Shown: one piece after another, positions 19,186-60,352 of the stretch
Position numbering within the stretch: the stretch's first letter is position 1
Layout of the letters: each line of letters begins with the position of its first letter
Source of the DNA: Mucilaginibacter saanensis
Lineage (GTDB): Bacteria > Bacteroidota > Bacteroidia > Sphingobacteriales > Sphingobacteriaceae
Assembly: GCF_014200575.1 (NCBI RefSeq)
Contig: NZ_JACHBZ010000019.1
Span: 60,800 to 124,799 of the forward strand
Direction of reading: 5' to 3'
Length of the DNA stretch: 64,000 nucleotides
Program-made: the position numbers and the translations under genes
The notes under the pieces: generated by a model
What the model was told of the DNA's origin: nothing
The model's database searches: none
Seen by the model: the letters and a program-made list of their open reading frames with translations, nothing else

Positions 19186-19345
19186 ACCAGCACCTTTTAC
19201 TTGCCTGTTATCCCATAATATTTGGTGTGGCTAAACGTTATTTGCTTATACTCCTGCTGAATAAATTACCTAATATTTTAGCTACTGTAGCAAACTGTTT
19301 GTTTGCTACGTAAAGTCATTTAAAGTTATACTAATTATTCAGTTT

Positions 19346-20068
19346 ATGAAAAACGTTCAGCAAAATTTAAAAAGGCGCGCAGGCATAGTCGGGATGGTAT
19401 GTTTGCTGGCAGGGCTGCTTACCTCTTGTTCAAAAGATCGTCACGACAACAATTATGTAGTACCTCCAGCGGCGCTATTATCGGTAATCAATGCTTCGCC
19501 GGATGCGCAACCAGTAAATTTCTTTTTAGACCAAAATCAAGCCAATCAGTTTCCCATCCGTTACGGGCACGGACTGGATTATCTTCGTGCCTTCAACGGC
19601 AAGCGTGTGGCCACTTTCACCCTGGCTGGCAGCTCAACAAAAATCAAGTCGGACACGATAAACCTGGTCGACAAAAAATTCTATTCTATTTACTTGACAA
19701 ACCTGGTAAGCAAACCTGATATTATATTACTGGGCGACTCCATTGCCCGCCCGGATGCAGGTAAAGCAACTATCCGTTTTGTAAATGTTAGTCCGGATGC
19801 ACCTGCTGTTGACCTTGGAATAAAAGGCGGCGCTGTGCTGGCAGCCAATAAAACCTACAAAGGATACTCACTTTTTACACCAGTACAAGGTGACGCTACC
19901 TATACTTTAGAAGTACGCAAAGCGGGCACCGCTACCGTATTAGTAAGCCTTAGCAATATCACCCTCCGCAGTGGTTCAATATACACCGTATGGTTACATG
20001 GCCTTACTGCCGCTACAGACCAAACCAAGTTGGCCGCAGACATACAAACTAACGCCTTTTATTATTGA
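19346..20068 (+). CDS. DUF4397 lipoprotein
   Basis: This is 240 residues with a lipoprotein signal peptide: a basic start, a hydrophobic core and the lipobox LLTSC, so Cys28 is lipidated. Two similar beta-sandwich units follow, each opening with a related phrase: LLSVINASPDAQPVNFFLD and IRFVNVSPDAPAVDLGIKG. They end with YSIYLTNLV and YTVWLHGLT respectively. This internal duplication is the DUF4397 pattern seen in exported Bacteroidota and Firmicutes proteins of unknown function. The protein is probably anchored in the outer membrane or facing the periplasm. A terminator follows at 20097. Confidence 0.88.
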   Translation: MKNVQQNLKRRAGIVGMVCLLAGLLTSCSKDRHDNNYVVPPAALLSVINASPDAQPVNFFLDQNQANQFPIRYGHGLDYLRAFNGKRVATFTLAGSSTKIKSDTINLVDKKFYSIYLTNLVSKPDIILLGDSIARPDAGKATIRFVNVSPDAPAVDLGIKGGAVLAANKTYKGYSLFTPVQGDATYTLEVRKAGTATVLVSLSNITLRSGSIYTVWLHGLTAATDQTKLAADIQTNAFYY

Positions 20069-44398: not shown

Positions 44399-44700
44399 AC
44401 GCCAATAATTTATGTTTAAGTAACATTATCAGAAAGCCCTGCAGGACGCTTTCTGAACGTGAACTTAAAAAATTACGTGCCCGTTATAATGAGCCTCTGT
44501 GTAAATTATCCTTTACAAACAGTCAATATACTTTCGTTAAAATAAATAATTAGCGGCAAAATCGCTTAAAACAAGTACAGTAGAGCTGATTTTCGATTTT
44601 CAAGCCTGGCTACGTATACAACCTTTAAAATGCTACACCTAACAAAAATGTTACGCTTTTTAATGGCAGGTTCAACACAATATGACCTTGCAGGGAAGTA
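44399..44700. other. intergenic region with a hairpin
   Basis: No gene is convincing in these 302 bases. A nine-pair hairpin with TCAGAAAGC/GCTTTCTGA arms lies at 44429-44456, with CCTGCAGG in its loop. The remainder is AT-rich and probably carries the promoter of cysC. Confidence 0.45.
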
Positions 44701-56606: not shown

Positions 56607-56670
56607 AAATATTAAGGTACCCTTGTAGCGTTTAGATAATTATTGTCGTAATAGCTAAAAATACAAGATT

Positions 56671-57105
56671 ATGAAACGCAATTTATTTTACTTATTACCA
56701 CTATTACTAATACTTGGCGAAGCGTGTACGCCAAAATCAGACAACACCCCGATCCCTGTTCCATCGGGTACTTTTAAAGGAAAATTCAGGTTAGTTACCA
56801 GAAAAGCTACCGGCGGGGCCGATACATTAAAAGATACAGCTCTTGTTATCAAATTAACATCGCCTTACCACTTTGCAATAACCGGTGATACTATCAAAGT
56901 ACACGCAGGCAGCAAAGGAAACTTTGGCTATGATGGCTATAACATGAGTTTCTTAGATAGTACTTACAAAGCAGGACCGCAAGTTAAATACCATTTGGTT
57001 GGTATTTATCAGTATTTCTATAACGGTACCCTATTGCAGCTGCAACGTACCAATGCAACCGGCGATACTGTATTGAGATACGACTTTAACAAAACTTCAA
57101 ATTAA
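56671..57105 (+). CDS. small lipoprotein, unknown
   Basis: This 144-residue protein has a lipoprotein signal: MKRNLFYLLPLLLILGEAC with lipid Cys19. The mature part is a beta-rich domain with YHFAITGDTIKVHAGSKG and NMSFLDSTYKAGPQVKYHL and a Thr/Asp-rich character. No family is recognised, but the fold resembles small lipocalin-like Bacteroidota lipoproteins. It is single-gene, with a terminator 19 bases after the stop. Confidence 0.7.
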   Translation: MKRNLFYLLPLLLILGEACTPKSDNTPIPVPSGTFKGKFRLVTRKATGGADTLKDTALVIKLTSPYHFAITGDTIKVHAGSKGNFGYDGYNMSFLDSTYKAGPQVKYHLVGIYQYFYNGTLLQLQRTNATGDTVLRYDFNKTSN

Positions 57106-57213: not shown

Positions 57214-57382
57214 TAATGTTTATAAACAAACCCGATATGGTGAAGTAACAAGAATGATAAATTGAAACAGGCAAAATTGATCATCTGAAAAAAATGTTTT
57301 TTTTATTTGTATCAAATATGTTCTTTACTGCGTAAAGGATTAAAAATCAACAACAATATTTAAGCGGAATTAAAAATACTTA

Positions 57383-57937
57383 ATGTCTCTACCCCCACGC
57401 ATTACTGAAGAAGAAATCATCAGCCAATGCAAAACAGGCAGTCTTAAATACCAGGAAATGCTGTATAAGCTATTCTATGGCTATGCTATGGGGATAAGTC
57501 TACGTTATAGTTTAAACCGCGACGATGCATTGGAGGCCGTAAATGACGCTTTTATTAAAGTATTTAATGCTATACATAATTACCACATTGATAAGCCATT
57601 TAAAGCATGGCTGCGCACCATTGTAGTAAACACCGCCATTGACCGCAGGCGTAAGGATCTGAAGTTTCAGCTCAATGTTGAGCTGGACAACGCTTCGCCT
57701 TTAAGCAGCCACGTAGGTACGGTTGATAATTTAAACGTGCAGGATATTTTAAAACTGATGAAGGAGCTGCCTGCTATACAGCTCACCATCTTTAACTTAT
57801 ACGAAATAGACGGATACAATCACGACGAAATTGCAAATATGCTCACTATACCCGTAAGTTCATCACGGGTTTACCTGAGCCGAGCTAAAGAAAAATTGAG
57901 AAAAATGTTAAGGAAAGAAACACAAAGCCATGGATGA
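57383..57937 (+). CDS. ECF-type sigma factor
   Basis: This is 184 residues. Sigma-70 region 2 has YGMGISLRYS-like sequence (GYAMGISLRYSLNRDDALEA then NDAFIKVFNAIHNY), a short linker and WLRTIVVNTAIDRRR. Region 4 is the helix-turn-helix LYEIDGYNHDEIANMLTI followed by SSSRVYLSRAKEKLRKML. The length and layout fit the extracytoplasmic-function type. It overlaps the next gene by eight bases, so the two are translationally coupled, as expected for a sigma/anti-sigma pair. Confidence 0.93.
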   Translation: MSLPPRITEEEIISQCKTGSLKYQEMLYKLFYGYAMGISLRYSLNRDDALEAVNDAFIKVFNAIHNYHIDKPFKAWLRTIVVNTAIDRRRKDLKFQLNVELDNASPLSSHVGTVDNLNVQDILKLMKELPAIQLTIFNLYEIDGYNHDEIANMLTIPVSSSRVYLSRAKEKLRKMLRKETQSHG

Positions 57938-59597
57938 GCAGTTGGATAACGACTTAAACAGCCGCATCAGGGAGGTGTTTGATAATTTTGATGACCCATC
58001 CTACCCCTCTGCTGATGAAGGATGGTTAATGCTCAGGGAGAAATTCCCTGAAATGGAAGAGGTACGCCCGGCCGAAAAGAAACGCCCGGTAACCTGGCTT
58101 TGGTGGAGCAGCATGGCTGCGGCCATATTATTATTTATTGGCATAGGCTTATGGGTTACCGATAAAAAACAACACCCGGAAACCATGGCCGCAAAAACAA
58201 AGCAACATCAGGAGCAATCATTAACCGATAGCGATAAGCTATTGGCAACAAAGCAAACCCCTGTTATTAAAAACAACACCGCTAATACGGCAACTGATAG
58301 TGCTGCTCATAGCAGTGCAATAACAGCACCTGCAAATCAACTGGCACAAAATACGGCTGCAACTCCTGCAACAGCGAATAAAACACCTGCTTATGCCAAT
58401 ACAAATGCCGGCACTGCACAACATTTAAATAATGCAGGCATTAACCCTGTAAAAAACAACCAGCTAAACGATAGCATCAACACCGCTATTGCTAAGGCAA
58501 ACACGCAGCAGCATATTGTTAATGCACCGGCCATTGCCAATGCAAACACTACAATCACAAGTCAAAATAATAACCCGGCTGCTATTACCCAGCCTGCTGC
58601 TAAAACAACTATGCAGCAGCACAATACCGTGAATGCACCGGCTACAGCCAATGTAAACAGTACTGCCGTAGCTCAAAATAACAAACCCGCAGATGCAAAT
58701 CAGCCTGCTGCTGTGGTTAAAACAAATACGCCGCAGTATGCTGCCAATCCTGTTACCGGTTTCGGAAAAGGAGTTCCGGCAAATACGGCTAATACGCCTG
58801 TAACTGCCGGTTCAAGCATCATGCTTCAGCAAACTGCTAAAGTGACCAAACCGGCACCTAATTCTATGGCTGCCTTGTTTGCCAGCGAACAACCCGCAAC
58901 CAAAAAGCCCGACGAAAAATACGACGAGGACAGAAAAGTACGTTTTGGCGTATATGCCGCAACATTTTTCAATTATGCCAAAGGCAGCAACAACCAGATT
59001 AACGCGGGAGCCGGTTTTACGTCTGACATTAAATTAAGCAAAAACATAAAGCTTTCTACAGGTTTGGCATTGGCTCAAAATACGTTAAGCTATAATAGCG
59101 CCCCTCCGGTTACTGCCGACGCGGTGTTAAAAACACAGGCGCTGGTTGCTTATCAGCAAAAAGATATGCTGTCTGTCGCTACGGCTTTCCCTATCCTTAA
59201 AAACTACAATGCCAATTTAGTGGGTCTGGATATTCCGCTGAATCTTAAATACGAGTTTAATCCGCAAAAGAGTGATGCTTATGTTTCTGCCGGTTTAAGT
59301 TCCGGTACCTTTATAAACGAGGCCTATACGTCGGTTTATGGTTTTGCGCCGTCATCAGTAGCGGCCGGGGCGCCACAGCAAACTACTGACGATGTAACCC
59401 GAAAAAGTTTCAGTGGTTTCTACTTTGCAAAAACGCTGAATGTTTCGTTCGGGGTGGGCTATCCTGTAGGCAAGGGCAACAGGCTTATTATTGAACCGTT
59501 TTTAAAATACCCGCTTGATGGAATGGGTTCGCAGCAACTGCGTTTTGGCGCGGGCGGCTTAAACCTGAAACTTAATTTCACGTCGCAAAAAAAATGA
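57930..59597 (+). CDS. inner-membrane anti-sigma segment fused to outer-membrane barrel (Dma-like)
   Basis: This 555-residue protein has an unusual order. Residues 1-53 are a soluble acidic/helical N-terminus (DNDLNSRIREVFDNF, DEGWLMLREKFPE) typical of short Bacteroidota anti-sigma domains. Residues 54-76 form one membrane span (VTWLWWSSMAAAILLFIGIG). About 77-335 is a Thr/Ala/Asn/Gln-rich disordered linker with two related units of about 40 residues (around QQHIVNAPAIANAN and QQHNTVNAPATANVN). Residues 336-555 form an outer-membrane beta-barrel of OMP_b-brl type (KVRFGVYAATFFNY to RFGAGGLNLKLNF). It overlaps the sigma gene at its start and the next gene at its end. This layout matches the dual-membrane-spanning anti-sigma (Dma) proteins reported in Bacteroides. 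Confidence 0.75.
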   Translation: MDEQLDNDLNSRIREVFDNFDDPSYPSADEGWLMLREKFPEMEEVRPAEKKRPVTWLWWSSMAAAILLFIGIGLWVTDKKQHPETMAAKTKQHQEQSLTDSDKLLATKQTPVIKNNTANTATDSAAHSSAITAPANQLAQNTAATPATANKTPAYANTNAGTAQHLNNAGINPVKNNQLNDSINTAIAKANTQQHIVNAPAIANANTTITSQNNNPAAITQPAAKTTMQQHNTVNAPATANVNSTAVAQNNKPADANQPAAVVKTNTPQYAANPVTGFGKGVPANTANTPVTAGSSIMLQQTAKVTKPAPNSMAALFASEQPATKKPDEKYDEDRKVRFGVYAATFFNYAKGSNNQINAGAGFTSDIKLSKNIKLSTGLALAQNTLSYNSAPPVTADAVLKTQALVAYQQKDMLSVATAFPILKNYNANLVGLDIPLNLKYEFNPQKSDAYVSAGLSSGTFINEAYTSVYGFAPSSVAAGAPQQTTDDVTRKSFSGFYFAKTLNVSFGVGYPVGKGNRLIIEPFLKYPLDGMGSQQLRFGAGGLNLKLNFTSQKK

Positions 59598-60352
59598 AAA
59601 GGTTATTACTTACCTTGATGGTTTTGCTTACAGGCTTGCCTTTGTTTGCCCAAAAAATCGAGGTATCGCTGCAAGCCAACTCGGGGCTGTTTCACTTTGG
59701 CGGTCTGTCTGCTACTGCTAATTCAAGCATTATTCAGTCTTCGGTAACCGGCTCCACTCAAAATTATACCAATAACCCCTACGGCAGCCGTAATGCTGTT
59801 AGTTACGGCTTTGGTGCACAGGTACAGGCCGTGTCAAAAAGTAATTTTATTGTTGGCTTACAGGCCACGTATGACTTTTTAGCAAGTAAGGTAAATATCA
59901 ATCAGTATACCCCATATTCGCCAGCCGTATTTGATAATGATCCTGATGCTTCTTACATCACTGCCCCCAGCGCTAACATGGCTGTTAAGGGCTCAACCAA
60001 CCTGCAAACCCGATTCATTAACCTTAACCCTTATATTGGATACAGGGTACAATTGCAAAAGGTTAAGTTAGATATTTTACCAGGGATAGATATTGGCTTT
60101 AATTTAAGCGGTTATGACAAGGGCACCGTTAAAGATGCCGATGATAAAGTTTACATCATTAACAACAAAATAAACGCCCCATCTACAGACATCCGTTTAA
60201 GACTTGGCCTGGCGGCCACTTACAACCAATTTGGTATAACCGCCAGCTATGCCCGTGGCCTAACTAACTATGAAGGTAATATGCTTGGAGATGTCAAAAT
60301 TGAGGCCCACAGCCAACTGATCAGGTTTGGCATCAGTTACCGCATATTTTAA
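59594..60352 (+). CDS. outer-membrane beta-barrel protein
   Basis: This 252-residue protein has a signal peptide (about 1-19, LLLTLMVLLTGLPLFAQ) and a predicted small barrel: alternating strands such as IEVSLQANSGLFHFGG, VSYGFGAQVQAVSKS, FIVGLQATYDFLAS, LNPYIGYRVQLQK, IRLRLGLAATYNQFGITASY and the final LIRFGISYRIF with terminal Phe. It starts with ATGA overlap to the barrel-fused protein upstream, so the three genes form one operon. It may be a partner or target of the anti-sigma protein. Confidence 0.82.
   Translation: MKRLLLTLMVLLTGLPLFAQKIEVSLQANSGLFHFGGLSATANSSIIQSSVTGSTQNYTNNPYGSRNAVSYGFGAQVQAVSKSNFIVGLQATYDFLASKVNINQYTPYSPAVFDNDPDASYITAPSANMAVKGSTNLQTRFINLNPYIGYRVQLQKVKLDILPGIDIGFNLSGYDKGTVKDADDKVYIINNKINAPSTDIRLRLGLAATYNQFGITASYARGLTNYEGNMLGDVKIEAHSQLIRFGISYRIF

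Follow-up and report, generated by a model that had tools for sequence, protein, structure and literature searches.

In the FecI-FecR-FecA system, an outer-membrane barrel and a single-span anti-sigma relay what happens at the outer membrane to an ECF sigma factor in the cytoplasm. In RseA/RpoE an ECF sigma factor is held by a membrane anti-sigma and envelope genes are the output; RseA is without an outer-membrane domain, and release occurs by proteolysis that is triggered by unassembled porins. The proteins Dma1, Dma2 and Dma3 of Bacteroides thetaiotaomicron are dual membrane-spanning anti-sigma factors, and the Das sigma factors belong to ECF21 (PMC13088901). These Dma proteins carry an N-terminal sigma-binding part, one membrane span, a long disordered tether and a C-terminal barrel (PMC13088901). 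Deletion of dma2 raises das2 (Log2FC 4.54) together with neighbouring genes, a rise that would fit autoregulation, and Dma1 works via another gene, nigD1/NigD1 (PMC13088901).

Here a predicted Mucilaginibacter case of the Dma-type switch is described, from a stretch of 64,000 nucleotides of the Mucilaginibacter saanensis genome (the window); the core idea is already in print for gut Bacteroides. In FecI-FecR-FecA the parts are separate and the barrel is a TonB-dependent receptor, whereas the anti-sigma and barrel of the window form one polypeptide and the barrels here are small OmpA/OmpW-like folds. With RseA/RpoE the window system shares, as predicted, an ECF sigma factor held by a membrane anti-sigma and an envelope-gene output, but RseA has no outer-membrane domain. 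The Dma proteins of B. thetaiotaomicron are alike in their four-part architecture and adjacent ECF sigma gene, the parallel being drawn on architecture and logic (PMC13088901). They are flanked by DUF4858 and DUF4943 genes, whereas the neighbours in the window are a small upstream lipoprotein gene and an optional downstream barrel gene; the window system further differs by a predicted promoter and a predicted lipoprotein-rich target set.

Four points are new and testable: a predicted promoter, a predicted lipoprotein regulon, the status of the third barrel as an accessory, and a split form of the system. No report of these four was found among titles and the starts of abstracts, most subscription journals lying outside the scope of the search, or in the portion of PMC13088901 considered. 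Among the papers found on Mucilaginibacter and anti-sigma factors, none dealt with the window system, as judged by title and abstract start.

Results

Gene arrangement of the sigma-Dma operon

Three genes in the window overlap one another:

57383..57937, + strand, ECF sigma factor gene (184 aa; PF04542, PF08281 and TIGR02937 all above cut-off)
57930..59597, + strand, gene for a predicted Dma-type anti-sigma with a C-terminal outer-membrane barrel (555 aa; from the ORF, alignments and AlphaFold2)
59594..60352, + strand, third gene, predicted to encode a secreted, accessory outer-membrane barrel (252 aa)

The ORF coordinates confirm the gene arrangement given in an earlier note on this DNA, with a sigma/Dma overlap of 8 nt, a Dma/third-gene overlap of 4 nt and a middle protein of 555 residues. 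A search for Dma-like proteins and their neighbours, as that note had suggested, disclosed an overlapping sigma gene in 81/81 Mucilaginibacter loci, all collected with a full-length Dma query; the overlap was 8 nt in 51 loci, 20 nt in 18, 4 nt in six, 23 nt in three, 17 nt in two and 35 nt in one. Dma matches occurred in 59 of 61 genomes of the genus, namely the window's own, 52 with strong orthologues and six with weak, paralogue-like matches only, leaving two without. The sigma orthologue adjoins the Dma gene in all 52 genomes with a strong orthologue and in the window. The best NCBIfam match of the sigma factor was NF058625 (sigma_PG0214), at 77.3 bits and thus below its cut-off of 130. The window's genome holds 47 ECF-model matches.

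Anatomy of the middle protein

The middle protein was divided into the following segments:

57930..58085, + strand, predicted sigma-binding segment, residues 1-52 (W32 invariant in alignments A4 and A8; 62% identity in the genus)
58089..58160, + strand, predicted single membrane-spanning helix, residues 54-77 (AlphaFold2 helix; hydropathy peak similarly placed in most relatives)
58164..58931, + strand, predicted disordered Ala/Thr/Asn-rich tether, residues 79-334 (low pLDDT; 19% mean identity)
58505..58712, + strand, two diverged copies of a 97-nt repeat within the tether (58505-58601 and 58616-58712)
58932..59585, + strand, predicted OmpA-like outer-membrane beta-barrel, residues 335-552

Structure prediction, a check proposed in the earlier note, gave the helix at residues 54-77, low pLDDT over residues about 78-335, and a barrel. 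Mean pairwise identity across the Dma proteins of the genus was 62% in the N-terminus, 51% in the span, 19% in the linker and 58% in the barrel. Anatomy, structure prediction and conservation agree on the earlier reading of the middle protein as Dma-like, encoded beside an overlapping ECF sigma gene, and support the conclusion that the window operon encodes a Dma-type protein with a predicted cytosol-side N-terminus, one span, a tether and a C-terminal barrel. A single Mucilaginibacter protein probably holds a sigma factor in the cytoplasm and reaches an outer-membrane barrel through both membranes, as judged from sequence and structure models; we infer sigma holding, double anchoring and the regulon presented below.

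The linker, taken between the two domain matches, was 130-255 residues long in 99 proteins, with none below 130, and that of the window, at 255 aa, was the longest of them. The proposal that the linker repeat sets the reach across the periplasm was not supported: sequence is not conserved among these linkers of 130-255 residues, and that of the window stands out only as the longest; a search for a repeat array in the linker gave nothing beyond the one diverged pair. Compared with solved structures, the N-terminus matched no anti-sigma, the best hit (E 0.051) being an unrelated TMED9 chain, and Dma had no match among PDB sequences up to E 1. The Dma model matched mainly phage barrel proteins in a viral structure library, which was uninformative. 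A Pfam scan that accepted E values up to 1 found neither a TonB-dependent receptor domain nor a plug domain in Dma or in the third protein.

A lipoprotein gene and a promoter motif at the locus

A further gene and two promoter-like sites precede the sigma gene; the earlier note mentioned neither the lipoprotein gene nor the promoter that it has in common with the sigma operon:

56624..56650, + strand, TGTAGC-N17-CGTA, putative ECF-type promoter for the lipoprotein gene (64 such sites before this gene in 81 loci)
56671..57105, + strand, small lipoprotein gene upstream of sigma, predicted regulon member (144 aa, lipobox Cys19)
57308..57334, + strand, TGTATC-N17-CGTA, putative promoter for the sigma-Dma operon (comparable site in 65/81 loci)

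In an alignment of 24 relatives (A5) the lipobox Cys19 is invariant. The window's lipoprotein fell into no Pfam family; among the 24 members each family that matched did so in one at most, DUF4943 was not among the families matched, and comparison with the PDB gave no match worth naming, so that nothing was found to tie this lipoprotein to BT_1557, which belongs to the dma2 operon. In two loci (L181 and L346) a tandem pair of small lipoprotein genes stands before sigma, each with its own motif.

The pattern TGTA[AGT]C-N-CGTA lies at most 220 nt 5' of sigma in 65/81 loci. With spacers of 12-23 nt tried, only 17 (58 loci) and 16 (seven loci) were found at these sites. The 81 loci contain 138 occurrences of the pattern as against 15.2 in block shuffles, 66 sites standing before sigma, 65 before another ORF, which is read as the neighbouring lipoprotein gene nearly always, and seven before none. 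The 16 loci in which the 220 nt before sigma are free of the motif include ten in which the upstream lipoprotein gene has a site and six in which it has none.

Outside the genus, GTA-N-C...CGT[AT] was found within 250 nt of sigma in 8/18 orthologous loci (L112, L113, L115, L117, L118, L121, L123 and L149); for L120, counted among the misses, the distance had been taken from a wrong ORF. Two more distant pairs (L135 and L141) also have GTAGC-type sites, far upstream of sigma. Elsewhere in the window, TGTAGC-N17-CGTA matches at 44611-44637 on the minus strand, 239 nt before a kinase-like ORF of 187 aa, possibly by chance.

Predicted regulon

At some distance from the operon, the motif precedes a second lipoprotein gene in the window:

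19286..19312, + strand, promoter motif before the DUF4397 lipoprotein gene (kept with no more than one mismatch in 28/30 genus homologues)
19346..20068, + strand, DUF4397 lipoprotein gene (L240), predicted regulon member (240 aa; PF14344, E 4.6e-29)

A looser pattern gave 14 sites in the window's genome and 12 in the reversed control and is therefore not enriched there by itself. Apart from the two locus sites, the 14 include three that precede the lipoprotein genes L237, L240 and L245 by 46-60 nt; the L245-type lipoprotein was found in 7/61 genomes, a number too small for footprinting. Among the DUF4397 homologues of the genus, 27 of the 28 motifs lie 55-72 nt before the start, where shuffles reach such a match in 0-3%, and the two failures, L247 and L248, are close relatives. 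In 20 further DUF4397 loci, mostly more distant, the motif was present in 7/14 from Dma-bearing genomes and in 5/6 from genomes with no detected Dma orthologue. These five comprise three one-mismatch sites with CGTTT as the -10 and two full sites in a single, 71%-complete genome, and their presence suggests that another sigma factor may read a similar sequence. Some genomes (G026, G029 and G009, and that of L200) have the DUF4397 gene next to the sigma locus.

A strict motif, TGTAGCGTTT-N13/14-CGTA, gave 28 sites against three in reversed controls in 13 genomes of the genus, and with a further A 48 against three in 61 genomes. An ORF start follows within 15-130 nt at 45 of the 49 distinct strict sites for which flanking DNA was available, the other four having none within 130 nt. 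These 45 targets are the locus lipoprotein (16), the sigma gene of the Dma pair (3), which is the sole sigma gene behind these 49 sites, and 26 others: 21 lipoprotein-like genes, four sugar transferases and one unclear. Counted by family, 12/14 are lipoprotein-like. Among the remaining predicted genes of the loci with 100 residues or more, the same rough lipoprotein test picks out 76/771; against this background the 21/26 has a binomial probability of 3e-17, which is overstated since the species are related. FKBP_C and Inhibitor_I42 are among the domains met in a scan of ten targets, and PF02397 was found in the one sugar transferase tested of the four (E 9.8e-64). In the window's own genome the strict motif stands before a sugar transferase gene with PF02397 on contig C5 (L235:1501-2949), and homologues lie behind it in three other genomes of the genus (L338, L343 and L352).

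Third barrel gene

The third gene lies 3' of Dma in 28/81 genus loci, with a 4-nt overlap in 23 of them. It is missing from the other 53, in which the sigma-Dma pair is intact, and often an opposite-strand gene that we label permease-like comes next. Explaining its distribution on the sigma+Dma tree takes 17 changes, of which starred branches force 13 or more. Its absence from 53/81 loci and repeated gain or loss point to an accessory role, and the earlier suggestion of a partner or sensor, if meant as a necessary one, is not supported, the gene being missing also from the window's five nearest rows of the tree. In L186, which shares a contig with L065, two tandem copies follow the Dma gene.

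A barrel fold is predicted for the third protein. Derivation from a duplicated Dma barrel had no profile support (hhalign probability 0.7%, E 0.085), though both are predicted small barrels; against the separate barrel of the split systems described next, hhalign gave 39.6% over 85 columns.

Split forms and paralogous pairs

In another genus of the same family (L128-L131), the gene next after the ECF sigma gene encodes an anti-sigma of 248-277 residues and the one after that a separate secreted barrel, that of L130 matching PF13568 (E 7.7e-12). The short protein has the same N-terminus as Dma and one span, without the barrel. A phylum search gave ten further short matches; a separate barrel comes next in eight of them (L315-L322), which include other families as well as the window's genus (L320) and in one of which (L318) a small opposite ORF lies between short protein and barrel. 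In L323 the next protein, of 372 residues, matched no barrel profile, and in L324 there was none. Examples are L130:3439-5558 and L320:1909-4081, and the split anti-sigmas range from 239 to 277 aa. These relatives have the same three parts as FecI-FecR-FecA, in separate genes.

The N-termini of fused and split proteins are homologous (hhalign 97%, E 1e-10). A relationship between the Dma barrel and that of the split systems had no support (hhalign 0.6%). Seven short proteins (L128-L131, L317, L318 and L320) have a conserved C-terminal tail, which could dock to the separate barrel. Fused and split forms coexist in G125 (L122 and L128) and in G004 (L042 and L320).

Upstream of sigma in L128-L131 and L320, a GCAACC element, read by eye, replaces TGTAGC, so that the sigma factors of the split systems may prefer another promoter. 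The window's own genome has a second, paralogous sigma-Dma pair on contig C14 (L325:2326-4250) with a Dma of 431 aa; in this and other same-genus paralogous pairs (L144-L147) an element GGCAACC...CGTG, again read by eye, is found instead.

Discussion

The reading preferred here, at a probability of about 0.65, is a Dma-type trans-envelope switch that has a lipoprotein regulon as its output and the third barrel as an accessory. The N-terminus of Dma would keep the sigma factor inactive at the inner membrane, while BAM would insert the barrel of the still anchored protein. An outer-membrane event, be it a ligand of the barrel, its misassembly or an altered lipoprotein state, would act as the trigger, and the signal would pass down the tether, directly or via cleavage, to free the sigma factor. 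Once freed, this would read TGTAGC-N16/17-CGTA promoters of its own operon, of the neighbouring lipoprotein gene and of the DUF4397 lipoprotein gene, and its targets would extend to other lipoprotein genes and, in certain species, to a gene for a sugar transferase, such that the lipoprotein coat of the cell surface is remodelled. The third barrel may modulate or receive the signal in a minority of species.

Anti-sigmas of the RseA and FecR types signal by regulated proteolysis, and Dma might similarly be cut after synthesis into two proteins, the fusion serving only to equalise their amounts and proteolysis of the inner-membrane half giving the signal. The two-gene form of the same parts in relatives, with N-termini homologous at 97% (E 1e-10), and the little constrained linker sequence are consistent with such a cut; we nevertheless consider it somewhat unlikely, as none of 99 proteins has a linker below 130 residues and the one-gene form is present in 81/81 genus loci, these having been found with a full-length Dma query.

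That another ECF sigma factor of similar preference reads the lipoprotein promoters, the pair acting on its own genes alone, or perhaps on the adjoining lipoprotein gene as well, is unlikely. The genome offers 47 ECF-model matches, and one-mismatch sites persist in three genomes with no detected Dma orthologue, but the sigma gene of the Dma pair is the only one behind the strict motif (3/49 genus sites) and the same-genus paralogous pairs show a different element. A role for the third barrel as the true sensor, with the Dma barrel serving just as an anchor, is very improbable: the third gene is absent from 53/81 loci with an intact pair, with at least 13 forced changes. In favour of such a role stand the 4-nt overlap with Dma, seen at 23 of the 28 loci in which the third gene occurs, and the predicted barrel fold of its product.

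On the preferred reading of a trans-envelope switch, a wider picture can be offered tentatively, at somewhat less than even odds, in which a relay of the Bacteroidota comes in single tethered form, in split form with a docking tail or with an extra barrel, and in Mucilaginibacter monitors the outer membrane and adjusts, via one promoter, the lipoprotein coat and a sugar transferase that starts exopolysaccharide. If the switch operates as proposed, Dma systems would have a definite output in the form of a lipoprotein regulon whose promoter can be read, and what Dma senses would become a question for reporter assays, with fusions of the 57308 or 56624 promoter exposed to envelope stresses. The natural split form would allow fused and split systems to be compared within one genus, and so to ask if the covalent tether is needed or if docking is enough.
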